The translations under genes were made by a program, and so were the position numbers. Positions 1,086-63,815 of a stretch of DNA of 64,000 nucleotides are shown piece after piece. The DNA comes from Lophium mytilinum. Its lineage: Eukaryota; Ascomycota; Dothideomycetes; Mytilinidiales; Mytilinidiaceae. How positions within the stretch are numbered: position 1 is the first letter of the stretch; every line of letters starts with the position of its first letter. The notes under the pieces were generated by a model. The model did no database searches and was not told where the DNA came from. It saw only the letters and a list, made by a program, of their open reading frames with translations. The DNA lies in contig MU004199.1 of assembly GCA_010093605.1 (NCBI GenBank), forward strand, positions 255,609 to 319,608, written 5' to 3'.

Positions 1086-2100
1086 CCTGCAATTCTCACC
1101 TATCTGGGCCACCCCTGACACCGGCAAGCACATGGAAAGACGGCGGTTTCACACTCTTTTCAATATGAAGCCTTAAGTTTTTTACATTCTATTTGTTACT
1201 TTACGCCCTTTTAGGCCACCCTTTGCACTTGTATACATCTAGAAAACGCTTCCTATTCCGTCACATGCGATTCACGCCCTCGAAACCGCTACATCCTACC
1301 CTGTAATCTTTTACCTATCCAGGCCACCTCTAATGCTGGTAAGGGCCTAGACACTTCATAGTTTCATACTTCTTCTAATATAAAGCCTCGAAACTTTAAC
1401 ATTTGCCTGAAATTCTTTGAACACGTGAGGGCACCTCTGACGCGGGCAAGCACCTGGAAATATCGTAGTCTCATACTCCTTCCAATATGAAGCTTCGGAA
1501 CCTTAACATCCGGCTGAAGATCTTTGAACACATGGGGCCACCTCTAACACTGGCAATCTCCTAGAAGTATTATAGGGCAGCGCTCCTCCTAATATAAACT
1601 CTCCAAACATTTAAGAATTCGCTTGAAAATACTCGAGCACGCGAGGGTACCTCTTACAGCGTCACGATTCCTCCAAAATAAACACTAGGCTTCATGCAGT
1701 TCGCGTCCTCGAGTCCCTTACATCTTGTTCTGCAGTTTTTCGCCTATGTAGGCCACCTCCAACGCTGGCAAGCACCTGGAAATATCGTTGTTTAGAACCC
1801 TCTCCAATACGAACTCTTTGCAACTTGACATCCGCTTGAGAATCTTTGGGCACGTGAGGGCACCTCTTGAAGCGTCATTAGCCCTCCAAAACAACACCTC
1901 CGTTCTAATTATTCCGACGTTTATCACCTATTTAGGCCACCCCAGACGCTGGCAACCACCTGGAGATATTGTATTCTAGGACTCCTCCCAATATAAACCT
2001 TCTGAAACTTGACATCCGCCTAAGAATATTTGAGCACGTGAGGGCACCTCTTACAGCGCTATTACTCCTTCAAAACAATACCAACCTTCCAATTTTAACA
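1086..2100. repeat. Tandem array, about 107-bp period, ten degenerate units
   Basis: A GGCCACC/GGGCACC core followed by a CTGGCAAGCACCTGG-like stretch recurs near 1106, 1213, 1321, 1429, 1534, 1646, 1751, 1858, 1935 and 2042. Spacing is 105-112 bp except for one 77-bp step. Later units alternate between two variants (GGCCACCTCYAACGCTGGCA and GGGCACCTCTTACAGCG), so a dimeric unit of about 214 bp is likely. The units also share a CCTCCAATATRAA stretch and a TTGAACACGTGAGG-like stretch. No gene is visible between 923 and 2259. The core is the reverse complement of the motif found in the 5-6 kb and 61-64 kb repeats. Confidence 0.8.
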
Positions 2101-2259
2101 TCAAAATCAATCACATTTACACGAGGATTCAGATCAGAAGTAAGAAATCATGTCATTGACTGCACGTTCGGCCCCATTGAAGCCGGAAAGAACCACTATC
2201 TACTCCACCAAAACTCCTCTCGCTGCATGCTGATTTGAAGCCCGTTCCAAACAGGACAA

Positions 2260-3706
2260 CTACTGACCAGAAGAACCAGGGGGAGGAGGGGGCACGCTCT
2301 CGGAACCAGAAGCACCAGAAGCACCATTGGTGCCAGAAGCAGAAGCACCGCCAACACCACCAACACCGCCATATCCGAAGAAACCGCCATATCCGCCCGA
2401 CGCCTGACCGAAAGAACCCCCAATCGCACCGGGAGCCTGCGCCACGCTTCCGCCCAAAGAACCGCTTCCGTTGCTTCCAGCACCATTCGTCCACGCCGCC
2501 GCGCCGTTCTGGGGAGTTGTTGAGGCGGAAGCGGCCGACTTGCGGTACTGGCGGGGACGCGTCGTCTTGCCCTTGGGGCCAGCAACCGCCTTGATCTTCT
2601 TCTGCAGCTCGTTGGCCGCCGAGTCGAACCCCCACTTGTCCTCTTGGGTCAGCCAGCCTAGCAGATGTTTCATCAGTTCTGACTTGCGGTGGCTCATCGT
2701 GGAGCCCTCGACGCGGATGCCGCTGTTGGCGAAGCGCGCGCAGATTTCACTGCGCGGGACGATGAGGAGGACGATGAGGAGGGATATGTTGTCATTGTCC
2801 AGGAGGTGTGGGGCGAAGTCGATGATTTCATGGCCGTGGCGTTGGATTTCCAGCAGGCGGTGGGGGTCCGTGGCGTGCAGGATCTCGAACGCTGTGTCCC
2901 ACGGCCGTGTCATGTCCTTGCACATGTGGTGTTCCAATTGGTACGCCACGCTCTCCACAGAGATCCGGTAGATGTTGTTGCGATTAATCGCATTAGTAGC
3001 GTCCGAGGACACGGTGCCGGGGACGTAGATGACCTCGATGTCATCAAATGGCGCCTCGCGTTCGACCGCTTTGCCTTTGCCCTTTGCAGGGTCTTTCGCC
3101 GCTGTGGACTCTTCCGCCTCTGTATCGCGCATTGCTTGATCTTGGAGGGCCTGCTCGTCGGTGGTGGGGGTAGGGGGTGTGGCGGCGGCAGGGGCGGCTT
3201 GCTGCTTCAGCTCCTCTCGGGCAGCTTTGATGGCATCGACAGGGGCCATGAAGCCGAATGTTTGCGCCAAAGCCTGCGAGTCCGGAGCCCACTCGAACCT
3301 GGAGAGCTTGCGTTCGACGTCTTGCGGCCGAATCCATTTCTGCAGCCACGGCTGCTCGGCCATGATGTAGCATAAGACACGGGTCAGTGCCTTCTGCTGC
3401 TTCTCTCCCGGGCTGAGGGTGGCGCCAGCAGGGTAGTAGAGCGCCTCCGTGATGGAATGTGCCTGCTTGATGATGCGGCACCGGTCGTTGTAGGTCGGCT
3501 CTCTGCCGTTGGGCAGCTGCTCCAACAACGAGGCGAAGGACCCCAAGAATGAGTCGTCCCACGGCATTGTTGGCCGGGCTGTATGCTGAATTAGCGGTGT
3601 GACGGGACATTGATGAATCTTGATGAATCTTGGACTCACAGGATGACTGCGCCGCTTGGGCGACCTGCGAGGAGGGTGCGAGCGGGCTGGGGGCAATGGT
3701 GCTCAT
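2260..3706 (-). CDS. Unknown protein with Gly/Ser-rich tail, two exons
   Basis: Exon 1 is 3640-3706 and exon 2 is 2260-3578. The 61-nt intron (3579-3639) has a GTGAGT donor, a GCTAAT branch-like site and a TACAG acceptor; phase agrees, joining QAAQSS to RPTMPWDD. An in-frame ATG at 3754 would add 16 residues. I recognise no family. Residues about 25-150 look globular, with conserved-looking Trp and Leu positions. A low-complexity Ala/Pro/Glu linker with a basic KGKGKA patch follows, then a second globular part (about 215-370). The last 90 or so residues are Gly/Ser/Ala-rich with a GYGG-type repeat and end in PPPPPGSSGQ. Such a tail suggests an RNA-associated or condensate-forming protein, but this is only inference. 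The upstream sequence is a tandem repeat, so the promoter may vary in copy number. Confidence 0.65.
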
Positions 3707-3742
3707 TATGAAGGCTGTTGGAGCGGAAGTCGTCGTGCTGGT

Positions 3743-4215
3743 GGAGCAGTGCAAGCTGATGAAGGAGGAGAGGTGGAGAAAGGTTGATGGCTGATGGAAG
3801 AGGCCGGAGGTGGATGAGACGAGTTTGGAAGTAGATATCGAGAGGTAGGCTGCCGGCGGAGCAGGTCAGGTGCTCAGTTCAACGGGAATTGTAGAGCAGA
3901 TGGAGCAGGGCAAGTTGATGAAGACAGAGAGATGGAAGAAGGTGGGTGGGGGATGGAAGAAGGCCGCTGGTGGAAGAGACGAGGTTGGAAGAAGATATAG
4001 TGAGGAAAGCGGCCAGCGGGGCAAGCCAGGTGCTCAGATAGGCCGCGAATTGTATATCTGATGGAGCAGAGATGGAGTAGAGCTAGAGCAGAGCGAGTTT
4101 GATGAAGGAAGAGAGGTGGAGGAAGGTTGGTGTTGATGGTAGAAGGTGGAGGTGGAAGAGACGAAGTTGGAAGTAGATGGGCGGTGAGCGGGGCAGGTCA
4201 AGGGCTGAGGTGGAG
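3743..4215. repeat. Three-copy tandem repeat upstream of the 2.3-3.7 kb gene
   Basis: Units begin near 3743, 3902 and 4085 with GGAGCAGNGCAAGNTGATGAAG-like sequence, shown here only as a consensus. They share a GGAGAGGTGGARRAAGGT stretch, a GTGGAAGAGACGAGGTTGGA stretch and a GGGGCAGGTCAGGTGCTCAG stretch. Periods are about 159 and 183 bp. The strand is purine-rich (G and A). The first copy overlaps the longer alternative start of the neighbouring minus-strand gene, so the array occupies its promoter and 5' leader. Confidence 0.75.
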
Positions 4216-4967
4216 TAGTCAGCAACAAGTCGGCTCGGGGGGAGTCATTGGGCCGTGCGGAAAACCCTGGTATTCACTATTCCGCGTCTCACGTGCTGCA
4301 GCGAAAATAATGCCACAATGACGGACTTACCTAGTAGAAATGGACTGCAAGATAGTAAGCAAGAGGTCCATTCAAGTGTTTTGATGAACACAGATGGTGC
4401 AGAGGCGGATTGGTGGTGCTGCGGCGAGAAAGGGAGCGTACGAGTTGTGCACGGGGCTGCCCCCGAACCACCAGCTACCCCGGCTGTCTCGCTAGCTGCT
4501 AGGGCCTGCGGCATGCAATACTGCTCAATTATATTTCCTAGAGCTCTTCTAACAGAGCGTTGCGGGCTTCGAGTTGCTTTGGGCGTCGCGGGCTCGGGGG
4601 TGGTGCGGAGAAAGTTGAGGGAAGAGCAGAAAATGACATTCACGCTCGCCTAACTTGGGCCGAGCGCCCCATCGCACCAGCCACTCCGCAGCAGTGGCTT
4701 GGCAGTTGCGGCGAATCAGGACTTAAGATGGAACAGAACGCTGATTGGACGATTGCAACGACGCTTTTGAACCATCAGGAAACGAACTGGGGGCACAACA
4801 AACAGCGCAACACTGCAGTAATGCACCTGAGAACCGAGCTAGATGTGAGTATAACTGCTTTCTTCCCGTACTATAAGCTTGTGAATATTCGCTGGTCTGA
4901 TTGTTGCTCTACTTTGCAGGTCTCAACCTAAAGTCACGTTACACGGCGACAGACATACCATTACTTG
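4216..4967. other. Intergenic stretch without a supported gene
   Basis: Overlapping open frames of about 120-130 codons exist on both strands between 4245 and 4931. None has a recognisable motif, and the two strands mirror each other, as expected of chance frames in GC-balanced DNA. No repeat core was found here. Confidence 0.5.
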
Positions 4968-6262
4968 AGCGTCACATCGGACGCTAAATGCCGCCGCCAG
5001 GAGCGCCCCGGCTAGGAGATAGCCGGAAATCCAAAGAGATGTCTATTATCCAGTGCATAAACCTTGATTATGCTTTAGAGCAGCGACGATGCGAGCTGAT
5101 TAGAGACTAGCCCTGCTATAGTGCCATTCTGAGCGCTATATGACGCCGTCAGGAGCCCTCCATCTCCACAGCAGCCAGCAAGCCAAATACATGTCTAACA
5201 TCTGATGCGTGAGCCTTTGTTATGCTTTGGGGTAGCAATAAGGTGAGCCATTTAGGGACTAGCACTGCGCAAGTGCCATATTAGACGCCATACGGCGCCG
5301 TCAAGAGCACCCCAGCTAGGAAATAGCCGGACAGCCAGAGGTATGTCTATTATCTAGTGCGAAAACCTTGATATGCGTTGGAGCAGGGACAAGGTGACCT
5401 ATTTTGAGGCTAGCACTGCACAAGTGCCATTTTGCACGCTGTATGGCATCGTCAAGAGTCCTCCAGCCAGACAGTAGCCGGTCCGCCAAAGACGGGTCTA
5501 CTACTTACTGCGTAGTTTTTGACATTCCTTAAAGGACCGACAGGGGGAGCTATTCGGAAACTAGCCCTAGGCAAATGCTATTTTGGAAGCCAGACACCGC
5601 TTTCAGAGGAGACGTGGCTGACAGTTGGTCGACCTTCCAAGCGGTAGCCCAATTCCTACTCTGAGAGCTTTGGCATCGTCTTAGAGTATCAAAAAGGTGG
5701 GCAATTTGGATACTAGCTCTATGCAAGTGCTACTCTAGCAGCTAGACACCACTGTCAAGAGCAGCTCCGTTCTCAATTAGTCGGCCAGCCAAGCGGTAGT
5801 CTAATATAAATTGCGTAAAAGCTTCCTTTTCGTCAGGTACATTATAAGCCAGCGACGCGGAAACATGGCTACCTACGTTCCGCTTTGAAAGCTGGACGCC
5901 ACTATCAAAAGTAGCTCCGTTGTTAGGTGCTAGCCAGCTAAAAGGTAGCCTAATTCCAACCCTGCAGACCTCCGAGTTGCGGTGGAGTACATAACAGGTT
6001 GACTATGCGAAAATGTGACCAAGGATCATGCTAATTTGGAAGCTAGACACCATTGTCAAGTGCGGCCCCGGCATCAGGTGACCAGCATGTAATTGGGTAG
6101 TCTAATTTCTACCGAGTGGACATCTACACTGCAGTGGAGTATACAACAACCTAACAACGCCAAATTACGACTCTGTATATGATATCTTAGAAGCTGGACG
6201 CCACTGTCAGGAGTGGCGCCGCTGTCAGGTGACCAGCCAGCCAGAAGGTAGCTTAATCTCCA
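4968..6262. repeat. Tandem array, about 150-bp period, nine units
   Basis: The core, which varies around GCYGGACRCCACTGTCARGAG followed by a C-rich stretch, recurs near 4981, 5137, 5287, 5434, 5587, 5738, 5887, 6039 and 6189, a regular 147-156 bp spacing. Early units share TAGGARATAGCCGG, ATGTCTATTATC and RAGGTGAGC blocks. Later units share CCAGCCAGCYARAAGGTAG. The two halves are therefore subfamilies that drifted apart. No open frame of interest runs through the array. Confidence 0.85.
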
Positions 6263-7922
6263 TCGCGAACCATCATGAAGTCGCTACCACTAACAATTAC
6301 AACCTCAGCCCTCCAACACGGTTTCAACAACGCACCTAAAGACAGGAACCTCCAATTCAACCTCAATCAAATACATGACTGCGGGAACAAGGACGATGCG
6401 ATAGCATCTAGCGAACAACAATCAGGTTAGAGCGCGTAGGGCGGAGGATGGTCGGAGATTGCTGTCCGCAAGAGAATCCGTCAAATCTACGAGTCACGAA
6501 CCTGACGCTCAGAGCCGGCACCAATTCCTACCTCGAAAGCCACTCCGACGACTCCTTCTACCACACCTGCGTCTCTATAACGGATACAAGACAGCGAATT
6601 CGCGATGAGGGACGTGAGTTGGGACAGAGACATTGATAATCTTGGGCGATCTGGTAGCAAGGAGGATCACATCACCTACTTCGGGGCGGTAATAATCAGG
6701 ACCTTAGTCAAGCCCAACGAAGTCTTGAAAGAGCGTGTATTCGTTAAGGTACTCAGAAGATCGGCCACATAGAACTGAAATTGCCTGATTGATGCTTTGG
6801 AAGCAGGATACCGCTTTTAGGAGGAGCCTGAACAGGGAGTTGCGGGCGAGCCAAACCATATCCGATTTCCAACTTTTCAGAGTACTCAAAATGTGAGCTA
6901 CAGGGAAGGCCTCGCTCTCTGAAGGCTCTTTAGACGCTGAATGTCACTGTCAAGAGCACCCCCGGGGCCAGGAAGCTGGCTAGCCAATCAGTAGTCTGAA
7001 TCTTGCTGTGTCGTTCTAAACTTTGATCTTATATGTTTGGAGTCTCAGAGAGCACCGCAGACAGTGGCAAGATAGGGTCGAAATCACTAGATATGTCTGA
7101 GATCTTGACTCTGATAGAAAATGGCATCGTACGACCAAGTGTATTTCCTACCCATCTTGCAATGTGAGCCCAGCCGGGGGCTTCATGAGGGAATTCAAAG
7201 TAGCAGCCTGAATCAAGCGTTGCGAATCATTACATTATAGGTAGATGAATTATAGTCCTAAGAAGTCTGCCAAACGGCGGCAGAACGTCATAAAACACCT
7301 GAAAATGTGGAGGCTCAAGTTTAAAGGCTGTATACCCTTACATTGCAAGCGTGCATGAGTACTCCCATGGGGGTGCCCCAAACAGTTGCGACAGGTGTCT
7401 AAGATGCCTGTGAACACGGTTGTCTAATCTCGAGAGCGGTGCTCTTTACATACATGCTACAACCAGTAAAATCATGTAAGGGACCCCGAACACCGCTACT
7501 GAAGGTGCAATATGGCGTTGGAAAAGATCAGATAGAGCAGGCATGGAACTGATTTATCACAACAAGCAACAATGATTCGCAAAACGTCCCTCGCCAAAAG
7601 AGGTAACACAGCAAGCAATGGCACAGAGAAGACCCGTATATGTATTGGAAACAAGGAGATGAAATTGAACTTCTTACGGACTAGGGCCAGGAGATGTGGC
7701 CGAAAGAGCACCAAAAAGACCGAAAGCCGCAGCAAAGACACACGATATCAAGGAGTAGCGGTGAGGGCTACGGCAGGCACGTGCCTGCTACCTTGTATAT
7801 AGCCTCACCTTCCTCTAGACCTCTTCTCTCCTACATCATCAATCATCATTCATCCAATACATCACGTACACGGCCTACAGCTCCTTGTTTCGTGACACAC
7901 GACATCCCCCCCAATCTCTCAT
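6263..7922. other. Gene-poor stretch with diverged single repeat copies
   Basis: Diverged forms of the 150-bp unit appear near 6790-6830 (GGAAGCAGGATACCGCTTTTA) and 6930-6960 (AATGTCACTGTCAAGAGCAC). Reverse-orientation cores lie near 7050 and 7369. A 51-codon frame from an ATG at 6275 and a 60-codon frame at 7572 have no recognisable features and are not called as genes. Confidence 0.45.
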
Positions 7923-8525
7923 CTACTTGCCACCCTTCTTGCCCTTCTTTCCCTTCTTGCCCTTCTTCCCCTTCTTGCCTTCCTTGCCCTTCTTGCCCTT
8001 CTTCTTCTCTTCTTCTTCCTTGCCCTTCTTGCCCTTCTTCTTCTCTTCTTCTTCCTCTCCCTCTGCCTCCCCCTCCTTCGCCCCCTCCCCCTGCTCCTTC
8101 TCCTCCCTCCCTCTCCTCTCTTTCTCCTCTCTCTCCACCCTCTCCGCCACCGCCTTCTTCCCCTCCAACTCCTCGATCTTCGCCTTCACCTCCCTCTCCG
8201 TCTCCTCCTGCACCACCTTCTTATGTTCCTCCCTCCCCACAGCATGCTTCGCGAGCTTGGTATACACATCCACCATAACCTCGCTCCTCTTGCGATCCCG
8301 CTCGGCGCGCTCCTCCAAGGCCTTCGCCTCAGCCTGCTCCCTCAGAGCGCGCTGCTTCTCGACCGGCATTGCCAAGTACACCATCATCGGGATCTGGTTC
8401 AAGATCGGCAGGTCCTCGTAGGCGCGTGGGGGGCCGTCTTCACCACGCTCGCGGCGTTCTCTCTCCCACTTCATCCGCAACTCTTCTGCAGTAGGGATGC
8501 GACCGATGGGCTGGACTCCGCTCAT
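7923..8525 (-). CDS. Charged coiled-coil protein with lysine-rich repeat tail
   Basis: 200 residues from an ATG at 8525. The same frame stays open for 95 further codons upstream, but that part is His/Arg/Pro/Thr-rich, comes from GT-rich DNA and looks like 5' leader. The N-terminus (about residues 1-60) contains PIGRIPTAEELRMKWERERR and a short segment, LPILNQIPMMVYLAMP, that could be an amphipathic or membrane-associated helix. Residues about 60-135 are highly charged heptad-like coiled coil. Residues about 136-200 are almost only Glu, Lys and Gly, ending in many KKGK units encoded by a CTTCTTGCC microsatellite. I know no specific family. The basic tail could bind nucleic acid or act as a nucleolar or mitochondrial address; this is inference. 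Confidence 0.6.
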   Translation of the reverse strand: MSGVQPIGRIPTAEELRMKWERERRERGEDGPPRAYEDLPILNQIPMMVYLAMPVEKQRALREQAEAKALEERAERDRKRSEVMVDVYTKLAKHAVGREEHKKVVQEETEREVKAKIEELEGKKAVAERVEREEKERRGREEKEQGEGAKEGEAEGEEEEEKKKGKKGKEEEEKKKGKKGKEGKKGKKGKKGKKGKKGGK

Positions 8526-11089
8526 GATGGCGGTGGAGGCTGGGGGCTGGGGGTTTGGGGGGGTATGGTGGTGTGGTGGTGTGGTGGTGGTGTAGAGGGC
8601 GCAGAGACGGCGGCAGTGGCGGCGCGGACGCGGGTGACGGTGGGCGGGTCTGAGGGAAACGGCTGTCGCTGAGGAGAGATGTTGTATGTTTCTTTGGACG
8701 CTTTCGTGATGATGGCGAGCTGTTCTAGCTGCAGAAGTTGTGGCGCGTCTGTGAGCTTTGTTGCTGCAGAAGGAAAAAAGGGCGTGCGAGGGCGAGCTTT
8801 TGTAGTCCACTAGCGAGACTTCGGCAATTTAGCAGGGTGAAGTTGAGTAGAATGGGTGCCAGTTGCTCAGAGAATGTCAGCTCTTCCTATTGGGTCAAGC
8901 TACACCTTCACTATATGTGGAACTCGGAAGGGAGACGGAGAGTCTGCTTCTGTGGATTCTAGCTGATTATGGCGGACACTGACGAAGAGGCACGAGGCTT
9001 TGTGGGCGTTGTTCGGTAGCTTTCAGTCAATTCTGTGATTCCTTGAAGTATGCTTATAAACCATATTGCTAGTGCAGTACCATACTATTAGTCTAGACAC
9101 ACGTATTCATCACTGCTGGACTCCATTCTTGCTCTCTTGACACCACTGAGAGGAGCGGCCCAGATAATTGAAAGCCAGTGAGCTGAGGAGCAGTCCGGTT
9201 TACCCTGTTTGGAACTGGACTTCATGACTATGCTTTTGAAACTCGTGGGAGAGCCCTAAGCAGTGGCAAACGGGTGTGCACTGCTATTCACAAATCGCTC
9301 TCTGATTCGCGAAAGCAGCAACACGATCACGGTTTTCTTGATTCCGCGTGATCTTGGGTATGTTTTGAGGACGTGGAAAGTGATCTGGAGTACCCCTAGT
9401 CATTCTATGCTGTTTTGCTAGCAGGGCCTGCGCGAATCTTACTTTTCTAGTAGTACTCAAGTCAGCAGTGTTTACTGTGTCTAGAACACCGCCAAATTCA
9501 AACTCTCGTCCCCAGTTCGAGATCTGCGCGCGTTCGTCCACGGTATTACTTGCAAGGGCTTTTCATGGATACAGTACGTCCGCTCCTGGCGGTGTCGGCA
9601 TCATCTCAACAGACATCAGATAATGCCCTCATAGCGACGCCAGCATCCCGACCTAGCTTCATGTAATTAGCATTTTTCACGCTTTCTTAGGGGTGACAGC
9701 ATGGTGCGCTCTCTATCCCGGCAATGCGCAAGAGCTTGCTGAGCGTATCTTCTCCTCGCCGACCTATTCTGTCCGCAAACTGTTCCACCAAAAGCTCTCA
9801 TCACCACGCCAGCCTCACAACCAACACTCTTGAACATGGCACTCTCCATCTCTCATCGCAAGGTCGAGAATCTGGCCCTCTTTAGTCGCGTATGCCAGCC
9901 TCCTTCGTCTGCCAATCTGCTCCCGCCGACATCATCACCTCCGGATTACGGGCCAGCAAACACTCTCACGCGCGGGCCAGCCTCAAACCCTACCTATCCG
10001 CATACAAAATACAATCTACGGCTTTCCGGAAGCCTCAGAGCTGCGCAGTCTGCAGCTCCGTGGCGCGACATTTCTCGATATTAAGACCCCTCCTGATGCT
10101 CCGAGAAGCGAGAATGACTAAGGAAATGCCGCATATGGCGGACACATAGAGAAGCTAATGCGGCGATCTAGAATGAATCCGGCGGATGTTGAGTCTAACG
10201 ATACTGCGCTTGAGCCTGGCGCGGCCATAAAAGTCTATATTGCGCCTCGTTGTGGGGAAGGCGTTAAACCCTTCCTTCTTGAATGCGAGCCGCCATCGTT
10301 CCATGACCGCGCAGGGGAAGCCAGGCTCAGTAACTACTAGTATCAGTCCTACGCCTTTGGCTCAATTGCTTGCGGCGTTCTCAGTGCGAGACATCTAGCC
10401 GGAAATCCCGCTCCTCGCAGTGCCAGCCCCTTCTTGACCGCCAGCGCTTCACGATAGCACCAGCATCTCAACCAGCCTCTTCGAAGCCCTGATACACCAG
10501 CGTCTCTCACGGACTATAAAATTAAACTTCTTCAAAATACATATATGCGCGACCCCTTGCTAAGAAGTTCCATTCCTCGTCGCAAAAGACTCTTGCTGCG
10601 AGCAGATCGCGATCTTCTTCATGCGCGCGCCTGCATCATCGCAAACCTACAAAGACTCCGCATCTACCAGATCAGTTTCTTCATCCCATGAATACCGGCT
10701 TTCCGTCATTCATCCCGCGCATCTCTCGCTGACTCCTTCTACCTTTTAGAGGATCATCCTTTCCGCAGCAGCCGCTGCGACACCCCCGATTCCACGCCCC
10801 TCGTCTCCGCAAACCATCAAAAGACACAAGCAAGTCGAATCCATAATCGCACACCAAGGATATGACCTCTGCTTCGTAAGCTTTATCCTCCTTCCACCAC
10901 CGCTTCGGCCTTTCCAGATCCATAAGATTTAACCAAGCTTTAACTAGAATCCTTCGGTAAAAACGACCGTTAGTTATATGCGCCACCAACAGCGTCCTAT
11001 TCGAAATTTTGCTCGAGCGAGCCTACCTCTTACAAGCTCCGAGACGACGGCATACTATCGCGCACCTCTACCTTGCCGCCAATCCCTAT
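8526..11089. other. Gene-poor stretch, weak repeat cores and small open frames
   Basis: A GT-rich low-complexity run (GGTGTGGTGGTGTGGTGG) lies at about 8565-8600. Repeat cores sit near 9137 (forward, ACCACTGAGAGGAGCGGCCC) and 9250 (reverse). A minus-strand frame from an ATG at 10923 to 10681 encodes 80 residues including MDLERPKRWWKEDKAYEAE. It looks coding-like but has no known relative that I can name and no promoter signal. No other supported gene. Confidence 0.4.
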
Positions 11090-24018: not shown

Positions 24019-24185
24019 GTTGAAAGCAGAAAATATATTTTCGGGAAACAGGGGAAAAGGGTGTATATTTGCATGTAGCATACGCATAGGTGAGATGTAC
24101 AATGTCAAACTTCGGCATTTTCATAAATTCAAGACCTATGTCACAATATCTTGAGTACGAAGAGGAAGTAGGCTGAAAACAGGTA

Positions 24186-24413
24186 ACGTAGGTGATGGGG
24201 TTAGTACGGTGGAGGTAGTTTTTACGGTTTTTAGCGTCAAATGCGGGCCGATGCCTCCGGGTCTAGGATACGAGACATGTTAGCGAATTGTTTGCGCGAT
24301 CATGATGTGTAATACCACTGCCATACAAATTCTAGGCCCGGAGGCATCAGCCCGCAATCCGGCGCTAAAAACTGTAATATCTACCTCCACCGTAATAACC
24401 CCATCACTTACGT
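24186..24413. mobile_element. MITE, 228 bp, nearly full-length palindrome, TA duplication
   Basis: Left arm about 24186-24270 and right arm about 24332-24413 are inverted copies. Both outer ends read ACGTARGTGATGGGGTTA followed by TACGGTGGAGGTAG, GTTTTTAGCG and GATGCCTCCGGG. The element is flanked on both sides by TA (24184-24185 and 24414-24415), the usual target of Tc1/mariner-type transposases. It has no coding capacity. It lies about 170 bp after the MRP51 stop codon, so it may fall in the 3' untranslated region and fold into a long hairpin there. The arms differ at about a dozen sites, so it is not a very recent insertion. Confidence 0.85.
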
Positions 24414-24415
24414 TA

Positions 24416-25609
24416 TATCATACCCCTTTTTAATTTGATACTAAGACTGTAAGTTGGCCCTCTATATCCATATTAGAAACTCACGCAGCTGACTGCAGGT
24501 TTCATCCATAGCCGTCTCCAAGACACGTAGTTTGAGGAAACAGCATATCAGCATTTCTTACTCCAGAACGCATATATGCTTCCAGTTCTCGCCCTTACTT
24601 CATACATCCCCATTTCCATCCACATCCCCTCCGGAATCTACCGCAATGCTACGGACAGTATCACACGTTAGCACTAGAAAGCAGATGCTAGTTCGGACGG
24701 CACACGCTTCTGTGAAATAGTCAGTGGCACCTCGAATTAACCTCATCCTCATCGTTTCAGAGCCTTAAGTCACATCAGACCTTCCGTTCTAGGCTCTCGT
24801 TCGTGCGCTCTTTACCACTGTCTGCAGCCCTTCACCATATCCTTCCTTCACCGTATATGATAGAGGCTTTACATGCACCTAGCTTGCGTGAAGATAGATA
24901 GGGCGCTCGAATGGGGTATGGAGAGTTGGGAATGGTGTGAGGTACTTCGTATCATCGCTGATCAGCGAGATGGCGTGTTCAAGAACGCCTGGTTCACATG
25001 GATATTGAGAATTTCTTCTATCTCAGGTGGCTGTATGATCGAGCTATCACAAAGTGGTTCTTCAATTCCGCGAAGAGAAGTATTCCTCGCCCTAGGACCG
25101 TTTGAGGGCTCTGGCTCTGATGCTTACAGGTATTTGATAATTGAAGGAGGACCCCAATAGGTTCTGAAAACTCGGAAGATACTGTGAAACATCTCATACT
25201 ATGATTCACGTACGTGTCAAGCGTTGCCATCTGTACAGGTTTGCCAGCGTAAGGAGCACCTTAGGGGGATGCAGATATCGGGACGGCATGATCCCCCTAG
25301 AAGTGCGCGAAGGGCTATTGATATAAGGGTTCTTGGATGTAAGACGGGCGTCTGGTGTGGAAGAGCGTCCACGCAGAACTCGATGAGCACAGCCCAGCTA
25401 GCAGTAAGAATTGAGGAAAGCAGTTTCCAAATTGCAGAAATAGCTAACGTCTCAACATCGCTCTCGTTTCCATTCATCTCATTTTCATCGAACATTCCTC
25501 CAACGCTACTCATCACAATCCCTACCCTACAAAGCACCCCAGAATCTCTATACTCTCAACCAGCCCTCTCACCACCGACCCCAGCCGCCAATCCCAGTCC
25601 TTCTTCCGC
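24416..25609. other. Intergenic region between MITE and permease gene
   Basis: No repeat core and no frame with recognisable features were found. A plus-strand frame of 235 codons starting near 25224 is the antisense shadow of the permease last exon plus its 3' flank. The permease 3' end lies at the right border. Confidence 0.45.
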
Positions 25610-28971: not shown

Positions 28972-29393
28972 CGCTAGGCAGAAAAAAAGTGGCACACTCA
29001 AGCAATCCAGCACCGTCTGAGGTGGCTTGGAGAGTTATCAGGCTTCCCAAAGCTGGTATTTCATAAGTAGTAACAGCATGCTGGAGGACCTCTAACGGTA
29101 CTAAACAAGCATAGAAGTATTAGAAATATCTCACAGATTTGTAGACTTAATATCTACTACTAGTTACCCACCACGCTCTCTTACGGCTATTCTACCTAGT
29201 AGTTACAGTAGGCGCTCCGGTCTGCCACTGCTTGGAGTGCCTTAACATGTTTCCTCATAGCCCAAAGTTAAGAGTTTCTAATTTTAAAACTTGCATTGAA
29301 GCACTCCAAGCAGTGGCAGACATGTGTAGAATACACCCGACCGCACACGACAGAGTGCTTGCTGAGTGTGCCACTTTTTTCATGCCCAGCGAG
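28972..29393. mobile_element. Non-autonomous TIR element, about 420 bp
   Basis: Terminal inverted repeats of about 28 bp: the left end reads CGCTAGGCAGAAAAAAAGTG and continues GCACACTCA. The right end reads the same in reverse complement, with CGCTGGGCATG before the A-run. An 18-bp part (28983-29000 against 29363-29380) is perfect. The heptamer CACCCCA stands directly outside both ends (28965-28971 and 29394-29400) and is a candidate target duplication, of the 7-8 bp size used by hAT-like and some other transposases. Inside, a perfect 21-bp inverted repeat (29220-29240 / 29301-29321) contains the dispersed repeat core. The middle (29085-29190) is AT-rich and RIP-like. No protein is encoded. 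Confidence 0.75.
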
Positions 29394-30905: not shown

Positions 30906-31189
30906 AGAACCGACACCTGCAGAAAAGAGGCGGAAGGATGACCATGGTGCATTACTGATATAAAAGGAAGAAGGTTGACACTGATTTGGCATCGGGCTTT
31001 CTTTTGGAACTTGTACGTATGTTCGTGATGAGATACTCTGACGGCATTTGGTAGTCGTCACCTCGAAATCGAGACTTCTGGGAACATGTTCAATCACCAA
31101 TGCAACTAGTCCTTTTACTTGAAATTAAGGTCTAACGTCTTTTCCTTCTTGTACGTGATTGACACGAGTCTTGTGCGAGCTGTACAGTG

Positions 31190-31365: not shown

Positions 31366-31390
31366 GCCAAAAAGCCGTCACCTGGCACCC

Positions 31391-36299: not shown

Positions 36300-37805
36300 A
36301 TAATCGAAACGAAGGTCGCGGTAATGTGAGCAGCGGACTAATACTAAGTAGTAGAATTAAATTGAGTAGCTAACTCGTATTAAGGGGTGGGATAAACTTG
36401 AGCGGCTAAACAAGGTAGAGTTGAGTAGCAGGATAGAATTGAGAAACGTTACTGTATATAAGTTGAGCAGTGGGATTAGGTTTAGTAGCTGGATCAATTT
36501 AAGCAGCATGATTCAGTTAAGTATCAGCAGCAAGTGAGCAGCAGACCCCAACTGAGCGGAAGGACGAATTTAAGCGGAGGGTCGTGGTCGATCTTTACAG
36601 CGAGATTAAGTTAAACAATAGAATTAAGGTAGTATTTAGCGGCATCGTTAAGCAGCGGGATTAAGTTGAGGCGGGATTAAGCTAAGCAGCGGGATTAAGT
36701 AGATTGAGTTGAGCAGCGGGATTAAACTAAGCAGCGGGATTAAACTAAGCAGCGGGATTAAACTAAGCAGCGGGATTAAATAGATTAAGTTAAGCAGTAG
36801 AATTAAGCTAAGCAGCGGGATTAAGTAGATTAAGCTAAGTAGCGGGATTAAATAGATTAAGTCGAGCAGTAGAATTAAGCTAAGCAGCAGGATTAAACTA
36901 AGTAGTAGGATTAAACTAAGTAGCGGGATTAAACTAAGCAGCAGGATTAAACTAAGCAGCGGGATTAAATAGATTAAGTTAAGCAGCAGGATTAAGCTAA
37001 GTAGCGGGATTAAATAGATTAAGTTAAGTAGTAGAATTAAGCTAAGCAGCAGGATTAAGTAGATTAAGCTAAGCAGCGGGATTAAATAGATTAAGTCGAG
37101 TAGCAGGATTAAGCTAAGCAGCGGGATTAAACTAAGCAGCGGGATTAAACTAAGTAGTAGGATTAAACTAAGTAGCGGGATTAAGTAGATTAAGCTAAGT
37201 AGCGGGATTAAATAGATTAAGCTAAGCGGCAGAATTAAGTAGATTAAGTTAAGTAGCGGGGTTAATTTAAGCAATAGGATTAAGTTAAGCAGTAGACTTA
37301 AGTTAAGCAGTAGAATAAGACTAAGTAGCTAAGTTTAAGTAGCTAAGTTTAAGCAGCTAAGTTTTAGCAGCGGGATTGCGTTGGGCAGTGCAATAAGATT
37401 AAGCAGCGGGATTGCGTTTAGCAGTGGAATAAGAATAAGCAGCAATTGCGTAGAGCAGTGGACTCAAGTTAAGCAGTGGAATAAGATTAAGCAGCTGAGA
37501 TTAAGCAGCGGGATTGCGTTGGATAGCAGAATGAGATTGAGCAGCGTAGTTTAGACAACAGGATCGGTTTAAGCAGCGGGATCGAGTTAAGCAGCAATTG
37601 CGTAGAGCACTGGACTCAGGTTAAGCAGTGTAATAAGATGGAGCAGCCTAGGTTAAGCAACAGGATCGAGCTAAGCAGCGGGATAAGACTAAGTAACCGA
37701 GTTTAAGCAGCTGTATTGCATAGAGAAGTATACTCCACTTAAACCGAGAATAAGCAGCCTAGTTTAAGCTGCAGGATCGGCTTAACCACCGGGATCGAGA
37801 TAACT
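36300..37805. repeat. Minisatellite of 18- and 27-bp units
   Basis: The basic unit is GCAGCGGGATTAAACTAA (18 bp). A longer form of 27 bp inserts TAGATTAAG. The densest, most regular part is about 36655-37275; the flanks are degenerate versions of the same words (TTAAGCAGC, GGGATTGCG). Both units are multiples of nine bases. So the minus strand stays open for 208 codons of Leu/Ile/Ser/Pro/Tyr repeats (36648-37274), which I take as an artefact, not a protein. Confidence 0.9.
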
Positions 37806-37811
37806 ACAGTA

Positions 37812-37992
37812 ACAGGCCACAAGTCTAGGCACGCTGGTTCGCCACTGCTTAGAATACCCCCCAACAGGCTCTCGAAGACTCAATATCTATAGCAAGCGTC
37901 AAGCAGTATAAATCATACTGCATTTTGACTAACCAGCTGCTCAGCAGCCAGGCTACCCCAAACAACGGTGTCAAGTAAGCAAACTGGAGCCG
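37812..37992 (+). repeat. Dispersed repeat copy B
   Basis: Direct-orientation match to 31190-31365. Landmarks are CACGCTGGTTCGCCACTGCTT, AGCAGCCAGGCTACCCC, CGGTGTCAAGTAAG and the closing TGGAGCC. The two copies bracket the F-box gene pair and the minisatellite. Confidence 0.65.
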
Positions 37993-38620
37993 CGCCGTAA
38001 TGAGTCTATGTGCCCAGACTTATAGCTTAGTACTGTAGCGGAATCGAGTTAATCAGCGGATTGAGTTAACCAGCGGGATGACGTTTAATTGCTAGGAAAA
38101 AGTCAGCATTGGAATTCCAGCTAAACATGATTAAGCTGAACATACAACACTAGTAGCGTGAAGTTTCGAATTGTATGGATCTGTCTTAGCTTGGCCGGTA
38201 CGTAGATGTAACCGGTTAATAGACCCCCGCACTCGCCCATTAATGATTATGAGCTTCGATGAAGTGCAGATCCGTTCGCGGGGGGAAGAGGCGGAATCTA
38301 CGTCAATGACGGTCCATGACCCTCTCCGGATTGTGAGACACTACCGCTTCCACAGCGGCTTGCTCTTGTGCTCAGGCAATCCTACACCTTGGGCCGCTGC
38401 TCTACCCGAAGGTGTGCCTCTTTGGGCACTTTGGAAGCGACGAGGTATCCGACGTACGGTCGACGCTGTGGCTTGAAGCGGTCTTTCTGGGCGTGGTGTG
38501 GCCTCAATAGGCTTCTCCTAAGTGCCTCCAGATGCTGAACCGGTAGGGGCAGCCTCTCAATGGGCCGGCGACGCTGGGCCTTGCCGCCACCTTTCGAAGC
38601 CGTTGGATGCTGCCTCTGAC
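37993..38620. other. Intergenic, no supported gene
   Basis: A 101-codon plus frame around 38171-38476 has no ATG start of its own and no motifs. A faint earlier copy of the following 252-bp repeat may begin near 38570. Confidence 0.35.
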
Positions 38621-39330
38621 CAACGGGAGACACCGGCTGGGGTGTCCCGACCTGCTATTTGTGTCGCCAAATCGTAAATATACCAGTGGACAGGAGAACG
38701 TCCTGTGGTGCCCCAATTCCGTAAACGTAAGTTCAAATTCTACTTCAACGTCGGTGTAAATAAGACGCTCTTCAGCACTACATTTTACCACAATTTCCAC
38801 GCCTCCCTGAGGTGCTCCTTACGCTGGCAAGTCTTTCTTAGCCTTCCTCCAGTCGTTCGGGGCTACGCCTAGCGCATGGAAGACACCGGCTGGGGTGGCC
38901 CGACCTGCTATTCGTGTCGCTAAAACGTAACTATACAAGTGGATACGAGAACGTCCTGTGGCGCCCCAGTTCGGTAAACGTATGTTCAAATTGTACTTCA
39001 ACTTCTATGTGAATTAGTCGCTCTTTAGCAATACATTTCACCACAATTTTCACGTGTCCCCGAGATACTCCTTACGCTGGCAAGTCTTCCTGAGCCTTCT
39101 CTAAGTCTTTCGGGGCTATGCCTGGCACATAGTGGACACTGGCAGGGGTGTTCCAGCTTGGTATCCCCATTGTCAATAACGATCTGTACATAAGTATGAG
39201 GAAACGTTCTGTGGCGCCCTAGATTGGTAAGCGTGTGTTCAAAACGTAGCTCGATATCTTTTTGATACATAAATCATAAAGATGACATCCTATCCTGATT
39301 TTCCCGTTTCCCTGAGGCGCTCTTGCCACT
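38621..39330. repeat. Tandem array, about 252-bp unit, 2.8 copies
   Basis: The box GACACCGGCTGGGGTGKCCC recurs near 38627 and 38881, and as GACACTGGCAGGGGTGTTCC near 39134. Each copy then has a GAACGTCCTGTGGCGCCCC-like box, a GTAAACGTATGTTCAAAT-like box and CTCCTTACGCTGGCAAGTC. Copies 1 and 2 are the most alike. Parts of the copies translate in parallel (LGHHRTF / LGRHRTF), but frames are not open across units. Confidence 0.8.
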
Positions 39331-39983
39331 GGCAAGCCTGTGCAAAAGTCAACTGTAAGACATGTGTGTGTATCATATTGCGAGGTATTTTGTATTATCT
39401 TCCGAATTATTGGGGTACATCGGGGCCCTCTTCACACCATTAGATCGATGAGAATAAACCGCGTTTCTAGTTGATCGATGCGGCTAAGAAAATTTTGAGC
39501 TCGCGCAATGAGTTACCTGATTTTGTCCGCACAGCTGGCATTGTCTGAGGTTTTGTAATTATTCTTCTGCTCTGTGGATGAGGATGAGTTTTGATGGAAA
39601 GAGGACTGTTGTGTTGGGCTGTGAGTTCCCTCGGGTCGTCCGTATCAGCTACCAACTGTCATAGACGTCGTGCTGGCCCTCACGAATACTGGGGGACGTA
39701 TTAGCACGTCGTCACGATGTGTGACTTCAAAGTGGTGTGAACCAATATATTGAGTGAATTAGTAGTGGAGGATATGATTGCGGGCTAAAAGCCCTAATTG
39801 TAGTAAACTCTTGTAGTATGAACTATGTAAGAAAGGGAGTATATACAGGGTTGCCTTGGGGGTAAAAATGACGTTGGAATATACTCCAAACGTCCGTATT
39901 TACACCATATCGAGCCCGCAATCAGGATAGGCCTCAAGCACGGTGTAACTAGGTAGTTCTTGTCCAGTTCTTCTTTTCTTGAC
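39331..39983. other. Intergenic, no supported gene
   Basis: Moderately AT-rich. No repeat core and no coding-like frame with an ATG start was found. Confidence 0.35.
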
Positions 39984-60700: not shown

Positions 60701-61559
60701 TTGTTCTCCACTTTTACATGCACCCTTTCTCTCGTTCAGACCGTTAGTCATCACAGTCATCCCCAGCTTTCTCGATTCAGCCATCAGGCATCTCTTTTTC
60801 TGCTCTCTCGCCACCTCTTCTTCGGGTCTCATGAGCAGTCCCGGTTTTAAATGGCTTATCTGATCACCCCACTCCACCGCCCGCTCCCAATTTCCGCCAA
60901 GGCTGCTGGGGATGTGTCTTAGTTGCCTGCGAATTGTTGGGCCTTGATGCTACCTCTACGGCGAGGGGCGGTTCCCAACCAATTGAAAGTATGCCTTGCA
61001 CTAGTCTGCGCGGCATAAACGTCCCTTCCGCGGTCCGAGGCGCCCGGCTTGCGGGGAAGTGAGACAGTGTCTTCGGCGGTTGGAGAGGGTGGAGTTGGGC
61101 TCGAAGAAAATGAAGTAGAGACGCGGCTAGGGGAGACAGTGCCATCACGCAGCCCAGAAAGAGCGCTTGGTTCCTTCAGTGAAGTTTCGACCTAGGATTG
61201 CGATCACTGCTGTTATTACTGCCTCCCAGAAGATGGTAGTGTGATAGGTTGGACGGCCGTATATTTGTGCTACGAATCTACCCTCGCATTGGAGATGGAG
61301 ATGTGGGTCTTTAGGCTAGAGGGATCACGGGCGATATCCCGGAGTAAGGAAGTTAATGGCGAGTTCTCTCAATTAATGTCTTGGCAGGGAGTTTCCTGTA
61401 CACCTAAAGCCGCCCTTGTTGTGGCATAAGACCTTCGTAAATGGTAATAAGTAATTTCTATAGTAAAGTATCGCCCGATCTATTCTACTGCTGCTGCAAG
61501 TCTATAAGCGCCCTAGGAGCTATGTTCGCACTTTCTAAAAGTCTTCCGGCTTCCATCTA
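57755..61559. other. Gene-poor stretch
   Basis: GC-rich at 58100-59300. Small frames include a minus-strand one from an ATG at 60832 to 60635 (65 codons, MRPEEEVAREQKKRCLMAES at its start), coding-like and charged, and another from 61145 to 60864 that overlaps it. They could be exons of one small gene, but no in-phase junction was found. Nothing else can be supported. Confidence 0.35.
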
Positions 61560-61945
61560 CTACGCCGTAAGTTTGGGCCCACGGATAACACTGTTAGAGG
61601 GTCGTTTTTGTAAGCTAGGCACCACTGTCAAGGGCGGCCCTATCGCGAGGATAGCTCTTGTCAAGAGGAAGCTCAGATTACACAGCCTAAAACTTGACAT
61701 GACGTCTTACAACGATAGTACCCACCCCATCGGGAGGGCACCTCTTGGTCAAGAGGAGGCTCAGATCACGCGGTCTCAAACTTGACATGTCGGCTTGCTC
61801 TACAGTACTAGGCTGTAAGTTTGGGTACATAGATATAATACTATTCAAGTATCGTTTTTGCAAGCCGGATACCACTGTCAGGGGCGACCCCATTGTGAAG
61901 ATACCTTTGGTCAAAAGGAAGGTCAGATTATGTAAGCAAAAGTAT
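61560..61945 (+). repeat. Dispersed repeat, two forward copies left of the monooxygenase gene
   Basis: Copies at about 61560-61710 and 61786-61945, with a partial one between them. Each reads TAAGTTTGGG, then TCGTTTTTGYAAGC, CACCACTGTCARGGGCGRCCC, an AT-rich step, GTCAARAGGAAG and CTCAGATTA/GTCAGATTA. The outermost copy lies about 320 bp before the start codon of the flavin monooxygenase gene. Confidence 0.8.
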
Positions 61946-62266
61946 CCCAGCTCGGTTTAGGTTCAGCATTGACCACCTTCACCACCACTGTTTAGGACGT
62001 GCACCTCAGTTCACCTAAACATTCATCAAACATTTCTTTTTCCCAACTCAGCACTGAAACATGCATGGCTCCCAAACTACAAGCAGATAAACCATGTACC
62101 CCTCGTCTGAACATCCGACTGTACATTTGTAATCCGGGCCGACGTCGGGAAGACGTGCTACCTGCAGCAATTGTCGCAATGCCGGATACCAGCAACCTAT
62201 ATCCCACGCTCTTATCTCTCCGTCTTCTCTTTCCCTCTCTCAAATACCGCCGAAACATTGTCCAAA

Positions 62267-63412
62267 ATGCCTACCGAATTCATCAGTCTCGCATTCACCA
62301 ACGCCTCCACGGAGCTTAATCCACTCCCCCTCGGCGCAGCCATCGACCCCGACTACTTCGTCCGCTATGCCCGCAACCTCGACGACTACGGCTTCGACTA
62401 CACCCTCCAACCCTACGACGCCGGCGGCTTCGACCCCTGGACGACCGGCGCGACCATCGCCGCCGTAACCAAGAAACTAAAGGTCATCATCGCCCTCCGC
62501 CCCAACACCGTCTACCCCACCGTCGCCGCCAAAGCCCTCGCGACCCTCGACCAGCTCAGCAGCGGCCGCGCCGTCGTACACTTCATCGCCGGCGGCAGCG
62601 ACGCCGAGCAAGCGCGCGAGGGCGACTTCCTCTCCAAAGCAGAACGCTACGAGCGGCTGGACGAATACATCCGCATCCTGCGGCGCGCGTGGGCGTCAGC
62701 CGAGCCCTTCGACTGGGACGGGAAGCACTACCGCTTCAAGAACTACAGCAACCGCGTGCGACCCGTCAACGGCAAGACGATCCCCGTGTCCGTGGGCGGG
62801 TCGTCGGACGACGCGTACCGCGTCGGCGGCGCGCTGGCGGACATCTTCGGGCTGTGGGGCGAGCCGCTCAAGGAGACGAAGGAGCAGATCGCGAAGATCT
62901 ACGCGGCGGCGGACGCGGCGGGCCGCGCGAAGGAGGACCGGCCCAGGATCTGGGTGACGTTTCGCCCGATCACGGCGGAGACGGAGGAGCTGGCGTGGGA
63001 GAAGGCGCATCGCACGCTGGATGCGCTGAAGGGGAATCGCGCGGATGCGAAGGGCACGATCCTCGGGGGTGCCGGCGCGCCGCAGAATGTCGGGTCGCAG
63101 AGGTTGCTGGAGATTGCGAAGAATGGGGAGGTGCAGGATCGCGCGCTGTGGTATCCGACGGTGACGGCGACGAATGCGAGGGGCGCGTCGACGGCGTTGG
63201 TGGGGTCGTGGCAGACGGTTGCGGACGCGATTCTGGATTATGTGGATATTGGGTGTGAGCTTATTTCGATTCGGGGGTATGATAACTTGAATGATGCGAT
63301 TGATTATGGGAGGTATGTGCTTCCGAGGGTGAGGGAAGAGCTGGCGAGGCGGGAGGGGGCTGTGGATGCTCCTAAGAAACAGGGCGAGCCGGATGCTGTT
63401 GTTGATGGTTGA
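62267..63412 (+). CDS. Luciferase-like (LLM) flavin monooxygenase, SsuD-like
   Basis: Single exon, 381 residues, ATG at 62267 preceded by CCAAA. The frame opens earlier but without an ATG. The bacterial-luciferase fold pattern is visible: YARNLDDYGFDYTLQPY, IALRPNTVYPTVAAKALATL, the flavin-contact stretch GRAVVHFIAGGSDAEQAREGD (split here at GGSDAEQ), ERYERLDEYIRILRRAW, PVSVGGSSDDA and a C-terminal DIGCELISIRGYD. The closest known group is alkanesulfonate monooxygenase: reduced FMN and oxygen release sulfite from sulfonates, with a separate reductase not seen here. It would allow use of organic sulfur. Third codon positions are strongly GC-rich, more so than in neighbours, and the family is mainly bacterial, so transfer is possible but unproven. 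The gene lies between inverted copies of a dispersed repeat. Confidence 0.85.
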   Translation: MPTEFISLAFTNASTELNPLPLGAAIDPDYFVRYARNLDDYGFDYTLQPYDAGGFDPWTTGATIAAVTKKLKVIIALRPNTVYPTVAAKALATLDQLSSGRAVVHFIAGGSDAEQAREGDFLSKAERYERLDEYIRILRRAWASAEPFDWDGKHYRFKNYSNRVRPVNGKTIPVSVGGSSDDAYRVGGALADIFGLWGEPLKETKEQIAKIYAAADAAGRAKEDRPRIWVTFRPITAETEELAWEKAHRTLDALKGNRADAKGTILGGAGAPQNVGSQRLLEIAKNGEVQDRALWYPTVTATNARGASTALVGSWQTVADAILDYVDIGCELISIRGYDNLNDAIDYGRYVLPRVREELARREGAVDAPKKQGEPDAVVDG

Positions 63413-63429
63413 GTTGGATTCAAGAGGCG

Positions 63430-63815
63430 TGCTTCGTAGAATAGCGTAAATCGAGCTGCGTTTGGACCAAGACGTATCCTCGCGATGGGGCCGCCCCTGA
63501 CAGTGGTGTTCAGTTTGCAAATGCCTCACTCAAGCAGTGATATCCGCGTGCCTGAATTATGGCCTTACTGTATTATGTCTATAGTCAATGAATTTGGGCA
63601 CTCGGTTGCCACTGTCAGGAGCAGCCCCATGGGAAGACCCCAGTGAAGGTGCCGTGTCAAGTTTCAGAGAGCGTAAATCAAGCTGCCTTTTGGCTTAGAG
63701 ATATCCTCGGGATGAGGCCGCCGTTGACAGTGGTGACCAGCTTGCAAAAACGACACTCGAATAGTGTGATATCCGAGTATCCAAACTTATGGCCTAGTAC
63801 TGTAAGTAGTTTTGA
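63430..63815 (-). repeat. Dispersed repeat, inverted copies right of the monooxygenase gene
   Basis: Two copies in reverse orientation (about 63430-63580 and 63662-63815) with a forward fragment between them (about 63590-63660, TTGCCACTGTCAGGAGCAGC). The reverse complement of the second copy reads GTACTAGGCCATAAGTTTGG, TCGTTTTTGCAAGCTGG and CACCACTGTCAACGGCGGCC, closely following the left copies. It begins 18 bp after the monooxygenase stop codon. Confidence 0.8.

Follow-up and report, generated by a model that had tools for sequence, protein, structure and literature searches.

Copies of a recurring intergenic motif in Lophium mytilinum as probable inner end-boxes of a gene-less mini-transposon

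A short motif recurs in a 64,000-nucleotide stretch of Lophium mytilinum DNA (contig MU004199.1, hereafter the window), and most of its copies there are inner end-boxes belonging to an old fungal mini-transposon that carries no gene; the inner half of this element has expanded into tandem arrays. The motif is very probably a subterminal box common to a superfamily of non-autonomous DNA transposons (MITEs) with TA as insertion site. As mobile DNA the element is of an ordinary kind, some unusual features apart. What had been a puzzling conserved intergenic motif becomes a transposon superfamily open to masking, dating and searches in relatives.

Occurrence of the core motif

The core was described by a 21-bp matrix, for which 23 loci outside the window served as the training set, and the genome was sampled by a 200-kb grid of 20 stretches of 10 kb. 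The recurrence reported in the initial annotation is real: in the window the matrix finds 32 sites of at least 14 bits and 38 of at least 11 bits, whereas its reversed form finds 0 at the higher threshold. A matrix scan against shuffled sequence, of the kind it had proposed, gave enrichment, with 27 sites of at least 14 bits in the grid sample and 2 in 400 kb of shuffled DNA; core density in the window is nearly four times that in the grid. The pattern CCACTGTCAGGAGCGGCCCC, with up to 3 mismatches, occurs at 8 places in the window and in 0 of 100 shuffles. Genome-wide this 18-mer, again with up to 3 mismatches, occurs 356 times and its backward reading 22 times; for the variant CACCACTGTAAGGGGTAGCC the corresponding counts are 472 and 2. 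Loci overlapping other loci or the window (L004, L006, L007, L017, L022, L023 and L028) were removed before most counts, while L008 and L009 were both retained despite having about 1 kb in common.

The distribution given in the initial annotation can be followed only in part. Of its 18 positions and ranges, 16 have a site of at least 11 bits within about 15 bp; the exceptions are 9250, where the core scores 10.5 bits, and 31215, where it falls below the 10-bit cut yet lies within the profile-found element at 31184-31372. The motif had been called absent from coding exons, and it is indeed largely non-coding: frames of at least 200 aa make up 38.5% of bases but hold 3 of 59 core sites (at least 14 bits; window and 20 grid stretches). 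Its presence in most gene-poor gaps is not borne out: the intervals 9.6-24.8 kb and 39.4-61.6 kb are free of sites of at least 11 bits, sites rather than gaps being counted here. The flanks, said to differ between arrays, are not merely different: related but diverged units recur, TTTGCAAGCTGGA-like 5' of the core and GGTCAGTCAAAAGG-like 3' of it.

Architecture of the element

The element is 231 bp long, with 30-bp terminal inverted repeats TACAGTACTAGGCCATAAGTYTGGGCACAC and TA at each end. It carries two opposed, inward-facing cores 108 bp apart, the first (A) starting 35 bp from one terminus and the opposed (B) core ending about 67 bp from the other. At the B end, inspection by eye shows what looks like a decayed copy of CACTG lying nearer the terminus than the B core. 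With up to 3 mismatches, the terminal repeat gave 375 matches genome-wide against 0 for the reversed pattern. Facing neighbours less than 1.2 kb apart were collected from two terminal-repeat searches, each listing 100 rows of its 168 and 162 matches respectively; 96 rows of the first were used, the other four recurring in the second. Among these listed matches there were 44 such pairs, of which 34 were 216-239 bp long (14 exactly 231 bp) and 6 were 382-389 bp. Inward-pointing core pairs less than 500 bp apart were spaced by 107-108 bp in 20 of 26 cases. A core stood at the expected offset from 9 of 10 testable terminal repeats in the grid and window (11 sites, one too close to the locus end), the terminal-repeat matrix having been refined on these loci too.

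Outside TA, the flanks of 31 element ends have no conserved base, and no frame of at least 150 aa lies over 9074-9298 or 37805-38037. As in MITEs, the element is short and of fairly homogeneous length, with terminal inverted repeats and a target-site duplication, the latter seen in one empty site. The complete copy at 37805-38037 sits within an 18-bp tandem repeat, the register of which is restored when the flanks are joined through one TA. This join gave a mean match of 10.7/18 to the 18-bp unit (9, 14, 15, 16, 5 and 5 over six units), against 7.7/18 with no TA and 8.0/18 with two. The target-site duplication in this one case is thus TA. Folded as single-strand DNA, the same copy gave z = -1.85, its ends pairing as inverted repeats should.

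A tentative assignment to Tc1/mariner is based on this TA duplication, known from the one empty site and characteristic of that group, and on the CAGT with which the element starts, a beginning associated with Tc1/mariner. Of the transposase remnants in the genome, 14 match DDE_3 and all contain stops; 10 match DDE_1, a single one of which, at C23:244271-244780, has an open frame. The terminal repeat nearest to any of these 24 lies 4.7 kb away among about 210 terminal repeats listed, and 4 of the 24 matches are on contig C21, where none of the listed repeats falls. Among these listed repeats, drawn from 100 rows each of searches with 375, 168 and 162 matches, none is within 4.6 kb of the 24 matches, and no autonomous copy linking a transposase to these ends was found.

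Copies in the window

An element profile, trained on copies that included those at 9.1, 37.8 and 63.6 kb of the window, gave 206 matches at E<=1 and 131 at E<=1e-3 over all loci searched, whereas shuffled versions of these gave 1 and 0. The spread of the motif is thus that of a transposon superfamily. Three window copies are themselves training members. The complete element of 233 bp at 37805-38037 (plus strand), TA at both ends, has terminal repeats at 37805-37834 (+) and 38008-38037 (-) and cores at 37840-37860 (+) and 37950-37970 (-); its profile match covers 37806-38036 (E 1.9e-44). A near-complete element at 9073-9298 (minus strand; match 9074-9298, E 5.3e-44) has a terminal repeat at 9073-9102, a core at 9141-9161 (+) and an opposed weak core near 9248 (10.5 bits). 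At 63441-63804 (plus strand; matches over 63441-63803), an element at about 63583-63804, with cores at 63607-63627 (+) and 63715-63735 (-) and a terminal repeat at 63775-63804, matches over 63583-63803 (E 2e-52, training member). It is preceded by a partial copy outside the training set (63441-63564; core 63488-63508 (-); E 6.5e-27).

Further copies lie outside the training set. Partial element ends at 61553-61930 (minus strand) have terminal repeats at 61553-61582 and 61801-61830 and cores at 61620-61640 and 61870-61890 (+), with three profile matches over 61558-61930 (E 5.4e-36, 4e-12 and 3.3e-25). The element at 31184-31372 (plus strand; E 7.9e-27) lacks its far end; its core is at 31326-31346 (-) and the partner near 31215 is decayed. 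Decayed copies at 6795-7404 hold cores at 6809 (+) and 7370 (-) and an inward pair at 6942 (+) and 7049 (-), with E of 9.7e-16 (6928-7079), 1.7e-4 (7336-7399) and 0.017 (6795-6854). A short subfamily at 29206-29327 has inward cores at 29223-29243 (+) and 29298-29318 (-), 75 bp apart, and matches at 29206-29241 and 29298-29327 (E 2.7e-4 and 3.5e-3). An extra core at 29008 (+) lies outside that span.

Tandem arrays and conservation of the core

Some arrays are one element half expanded internally and bounded by terminal repeats. In the element at 7455-8133 of locus L044, one A core and four B cores stand between the terminal repeats; no other expanded element was observed to retain an A core together with the two termini. 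Judged by this one case, in which the tandem units lie on one side only, the elements are not of the Foldback kind, which has long terminal repeats of tandem repeats at both ends. In the window, B-half arrays at 4954-6266 (minus strand) have cores at 4989, 5141 and 5293 and then at 5747, 5897, 6048 and 6199, spaced by 150-152 bp, with seven profile matches (E 0.0042 to 6.7e-12). The array at 1086-2094 (minus strand) has diverged cores, 8 of them of at least 11 bits over 1106-2061, spaced mostly by about 107 bp; no terminal repeat was found in it and profile matches are weak (E 0.032 and 0.26). A 253-bp tandem repeat at 38625-39342, with cores both ways at 38809 (-), 38881 (+), 39062 (-) and 39314 (-), also matches weakly (E 0.54). 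Despite this, both have the core in common with the elements. The TA/AT ratio was 0.92-1.43 in eight array regions against 1.16 in non-ORF grid DNA, giving no clear signal of RIP-like bias.

When arrays were divided into six segments, the core ranked first in conservation in each of the 10 compared (0.69-0.85; one three-unit array left out), as the initial annotation had held for core and surroundings; core identity is somewhat inflated here since units and pairs were picked by core score. Conservation of the cores also exceeds that of the terminal repeats and of most other element sequence, which fits the earlier idea of a binding or recombination site. That the arrays do not reflect simple decay of one element holds insofar as conservation is uneven along the element, but a 231-bp transposon does exist genome-wide. 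Such a full-length transposon, named beforehand as the counter-explanation, largely applies: the profile at E<=0.01 covers 16 of the 18 entries, six of these 16 in training copies, although the sites are not explained equally along its length.

Spacing of the cores

Core spacings tend toward steps of about 10.8 bp, which is one turn of the helix; support for this is mixed, P ranging from <0.001 to 0.26. Core-to-core classes were 108, 129, 139, 151, 162 and 172 bp for tandem pairs and 75, 85 and 108 bp for inward pairs, and the B core lies about 57 or 68 bp from the terminus. In a first periodogram on 91 locus-wise spacings, whatever the orientation of the cores, R was 0.62 near 10.85 bp, the maximum of 2000 jittered sets being 0.36; for 32 locus-wise tandem spacings R was 0.669, reached by 0/3000 uniform and 0/3000 jittered sets. 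In this last test and in those on spacing classes, spacings were grouped by hand, outward pairs and tandem pairs above 180 bp being left out. The six main tandem classes gave P = 0.005, and the level of the eight main tandem and inward classes was reached by 0/3000 sets; P was 0.028 when whole classes were jittered together and 0.26 when odd spacings formed their own classes (14 classes). It is conceivable, if somewhat doubtful, that core distances are quantised in helical turns because paired sites must face the same side of the helix for short DNA to loop. Elements or arrays changed by part of a turn would then have failed to move or persist. Should the stepping hold in the full-genome set, it would provide natural evidence for a DNA-looping limit on the length of very short transposons, which to our knowledge is otherwise known only from bacterial test constructs.

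Origin of the motif

The core is likely a transposase-binding box. A Tc1/mariner-type transposase supplied in trans would have bound it and brought the two ends together, whereby core and spacing would have been held constant in mobile lineages as other sequence drifted. Tandem duplication of the B half would have produced the arrays, and decay would now affect most copies. It should be noted that many cores are kept within one array; a dead transposon would not require this, and there may be a second cause. The core could be a host protein site (for an insulator, replication or heterochromatin factor) merely spread by the transposon, its arrays kept because that protein would require sites in clusters along one helix face. 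Its conservation across arrays of differing unit length, and in the array at 1106-2061 without visible terminal repeats, would suit such a site, as would the tendency toward 10.8-bp steps. This origin is nonetheless unlikely, given that most window cores lie in transposon-profile stretches, several at fixed offsets from termini, and that a core of at least 14 bits occurs in only 8 of the 20 sampled 10-kb stretches.

If no transposon were involved, satellites or minisatellites in which the core is prone to recombination (Jeffreys-type minisatellites) would account for tandem arrays in which the core is conserved and the spacer drifts. This is very improbable, since copies also occur singly and in pairs, have terminal inverted repeats and TA ends, and in one case leave a restored empty site; terminal repeats and profile contradict it for most window sites, those at 1106-2061 and 38.6-39.3 kb excepted. 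Local palindromes, visible by eye in single units, might indicate a structured RNA encoded in each unit. The chance of this is slight in the extreme: for 14 array units of locus L001, RNAalifold gave no consensus structure in the sense direction and one 3-bp stem on the other strand, and the window and L001 had no Rfam match at gathering scores, the one L001 match having E = 4.

Relation to known elements

A literature search with motif strings of 13-14 letters found no paper, and the terminal-repeat patterns had 0 exact matches in viral contigs and 0 in bacterial and archaeal genomes. In the Sleeping Beauty-type IR/DR ends of Tc1-like elements, each end has two transposase-binding direct repeats about 165 bp apart. 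The present element resembles these in having repeats at fixed spacing, more than one binding repeat per end being present there, and differs in that the whole element carries two opposed cores, with the decayed CACTG copy at its B end, where those ends have direct repeats. It adds a fungal case of a MITE conserved best in a subterminal box and less well in its terminal repeat, and a case of half a MITE growing into a satellite-like array.

As described in PMC2872659, the CMITE elements of Acropora corals (about 100 bp, TTAA duplications, piggyBac-type) are likewise small and non-coding and form tandem arrays, and between families their terminal repeats are less conserved than their interior; the present element differs in its 231 bp, its TA, the fixed offsets of its two opposed 21-bp cores and its half-repeating arrays. 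By its description in the review PMC9659126, miDNA4 of Xenopus tropicalis is, in a different host, also a Tc1-mariner-type MITE, with an internal satellite monomer, an internal segment thus expanding to satellite. The MITEs of Mycosphaerella graminicola (Zymoseptoria) have TA duplications in 8 of 13 families, and families with a common TIR and TSD but different interiors were grouped as superfamilies (PMC4522978). By description, the TA-duplicating families are comparable fungal MITEs, and relative to those portrayed in that source the present element may be set apart by its common subterminal core and internal arrays.

Recurrence of the Core Motif

The recurrence of a short core motif, proposed in the initial annotation, is real: with up to three mismatches, eight matches are found in the window versus none in shuffled sequence. 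A 21-bp matrix, trained on 23 loci all located outside the window, was applied to the window and to 20 stretches of 10 kb, taken at 500-kb steps from contigs C1-C4 only. At ≥14 bits, the window contains 32 sites versus none with the reversed matrix, and the 200-kb sample contains 27 versus one each with the reversed and complemented matrices. Only two sites are obtained in 400 kb of dinucleotide shuffles. The window corresponds to G000:C19:255609-319608. Scaled from the C1-C4 sample to the genome (43,183,309 bases, 24 contigs), the estimate is approximately 5,800 sites, with a bootstrap interval of 2,200-10,400. The core had been described as absent from coding exons; in window and sample together, 56 of 59 sites lie outside frames of at least 200 aa, and three lie inside. 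Five proteins of the window were compared with Pfam, and four gave a match (luciferase-like monooxygenase, SH3, GDSL lipase and sugar transporter).

Neighboring sites are also placed non-randomly. Inward pairs, in which two cores face each other, are 107-108 bp apart in 20 of 26 cases, while tandem pairs closer than 500 bp (n = 93) cluster at approximately 108, 129, 139, 151, 162, and 172 bp, with others between and above these values.

Identity and Architecture of the Element

Alignment of 22 inward pairs with their flanks uncovered the inverted ends TACAGT...ACTGTA, and a 30-bp end matrix, with 38 hits, revealed the layout of the element: a core and an opposed core, in that order, between two terminal repeats. 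In the genome as a whole, 375 matches to the terminal repeat occur at up to three mismatches, versus 0 for the reversed pattern. Among the 196 terminal-repeat sites listed in two genome searches, at least 44 pairs face each other within 1.2 kb, with lengths of 207 bp, 216-226 bp (twelve), 230-239 bp (twenty-two), 359 bp, 382-389 bp (six), 456 bp, and 520 bp; at least 14 of the pairs listed measure exactly 231 bp. It can be observed that spacing is held constant as well as the core. The terminus lies 34-35 bp from the A core at all eight A ends where both features were found. Of the 100 B-type cores listed, 29 lie downstream of a terminus on their own strand, also among the matches listed, and no more than 1.5 kb from it, at distances of 66-68 bp (13), 53-57 bp (six), 72 bp (one), and 201-714 bp (nine).

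No base is conserved outside the terminal TA in 31 ends. The copy at 37805-38037 is inserted in an 18-bp tandem repeat: when its flanks are joined through a single TA, three units in a row agree with the repeat in 14, 15, and 16 of 18 positions, and the units further out in 9, 5, and 5 (mean 10.7), versus means of 7.7 without TA and 8.0 with two TAs. The flanking 18-bp units are related to a degenerate tandem repeat of approximately 1 kb at 36649-37600, TAAGCAGCGGGATTAAG-like, with periods of 18, 45, 72, and 234. A 231-bp profile derived from 16 copies, three being window copies, gave 131 matches over all loci at E ≤ 1e-3 (training copies included) versus 0 in shuffled copies. Window matches outside the training set are located at 61558-61707 (E 5.4e-36), 31184-31372 (7.9e-27), 63441-63564 (6.5e-27), and 6928-7079 (9.7e-16). 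The motif-bearing element is a transposon.

The initial annotation had named, as a finding that would speak against its reading, a full-length transposon consensus explaining all sites equally well along its length. A 231-bp element with TA ends and profile matches does exist; its conservation, however, is uneven, with the core above the rest. Of 11 arrays tried, one had only 3 units and was left out; in each of the other 10, divided into six segments, conservation peaks at the core, at 0.69-0.85 versus 0.46-0.71 for the best other segment. The claim that the core exceeds its surroundings is upheld in all 10 arrays compared, with the reservation that units and pairs were chosen by core score, a bias favoring the core. 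In 10-column blocks of the 22 aligned inward pairs, cores reach 0.71-0.88, terminal repeats 0.46-0.70, and a further block, the CTTGAC box inside the B core, 0.80. A count starting from the terminal repeat, which is less core-biased but small, found the core at the expected offset in nine of 10 cases.

Arrays can be part of the element. At locus L044 (7455-8133), terminal repeats at both ends enclose a single A core together with four B cores; the arrays of loci L024 and L016 are closed by a terminal repeat with its terminus 69 bp past the last core. Two further arrays, at 1106-2061 and at 38.6-39.3 kb, contain the core and may belong to the element, with profile matches of only E 0.03-0.54. 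A 26-bp stretch at 25241-25266, a single site, is 96% identical on the opposite strand to 38805-38830, which belongs to a 253-bp array; this likeness suggests a second family having the same core.

Possible Mechanism and Known Systems

Inside the ends, the two opposed cores most likely stand at the positions that a transposase would occupy. Their fixed distance fits the need for both ends of so short an element to be brought together, and tolerated distances that change in steps of approximately 10.8 bp would agree with a same-face requirement. Statistical support for such stepping is mixed, and the stepping is treated as a lead. With loci taken as independent, the signal is strong, with an R of 0.669 that 0 of 3000 random sets reach; for the six main tandem classes P is 0.005, and with the inward classes added 0 of 3000 sets reach the observed value. 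When classes are shifted as wholes, P is 0.028, and it is 0.26 when each of the rarer odd spacings (78, 88, 98, 105, 133, 143, 149, and 167) is counted as a separate class.

Transposase searches returned 10 DDE_1 (pogo/CENP-B-type) and 14 DDE_3 matches, 23 of them with stops. The DDE_1 match at G000:C23:244271-244780 (contig C23) is the only one of the 10 without stops, in a frame open over 426 aa. Most of the other DDE_1 matches carry many TAG stops, a pattern that RIP would produce. Together with the gene layout, the DDE_1 matches suggest a filamentous fungus as host. No transposase gene tied to the element ends was found, the nearest terminal repeat among the matches listed being 4.7 kb away.

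Coral CMITEs (PMC2872659) already display tandem arrays and an internal region that is better conserved between families than their terminal repeats; a Xenopus Tc1-mariner MITE bears an internal satellite (review PMC9659126), and Mycosphaerella graminicola has TA-type MITE families and superfamilies (PMC4522978). Six motif strings were not found in print in the openly accessible literature, and the listed titles and abstract openings of the open literature yielded no description of the present family. Within that literature, the family appears to be new and its general kind already known.

Other Features of the Window

The 232-bp imperfect palindrome at 24184-24415 (76% match to its own reverse complement) contains no core of ≥11 bits, and is perhaps another miniature element. 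On the minus strand, the neighboring genes 31391-32851, without Pfam match, and 34059-35393 appear related by eye through an LP-E-LLMT-like stretch and are perhaps a tandem duplicate pair. A reading frame at 7923-8828, also on the minus strand, has a repetitive tail rich in lysine, glycine, and glutamate.
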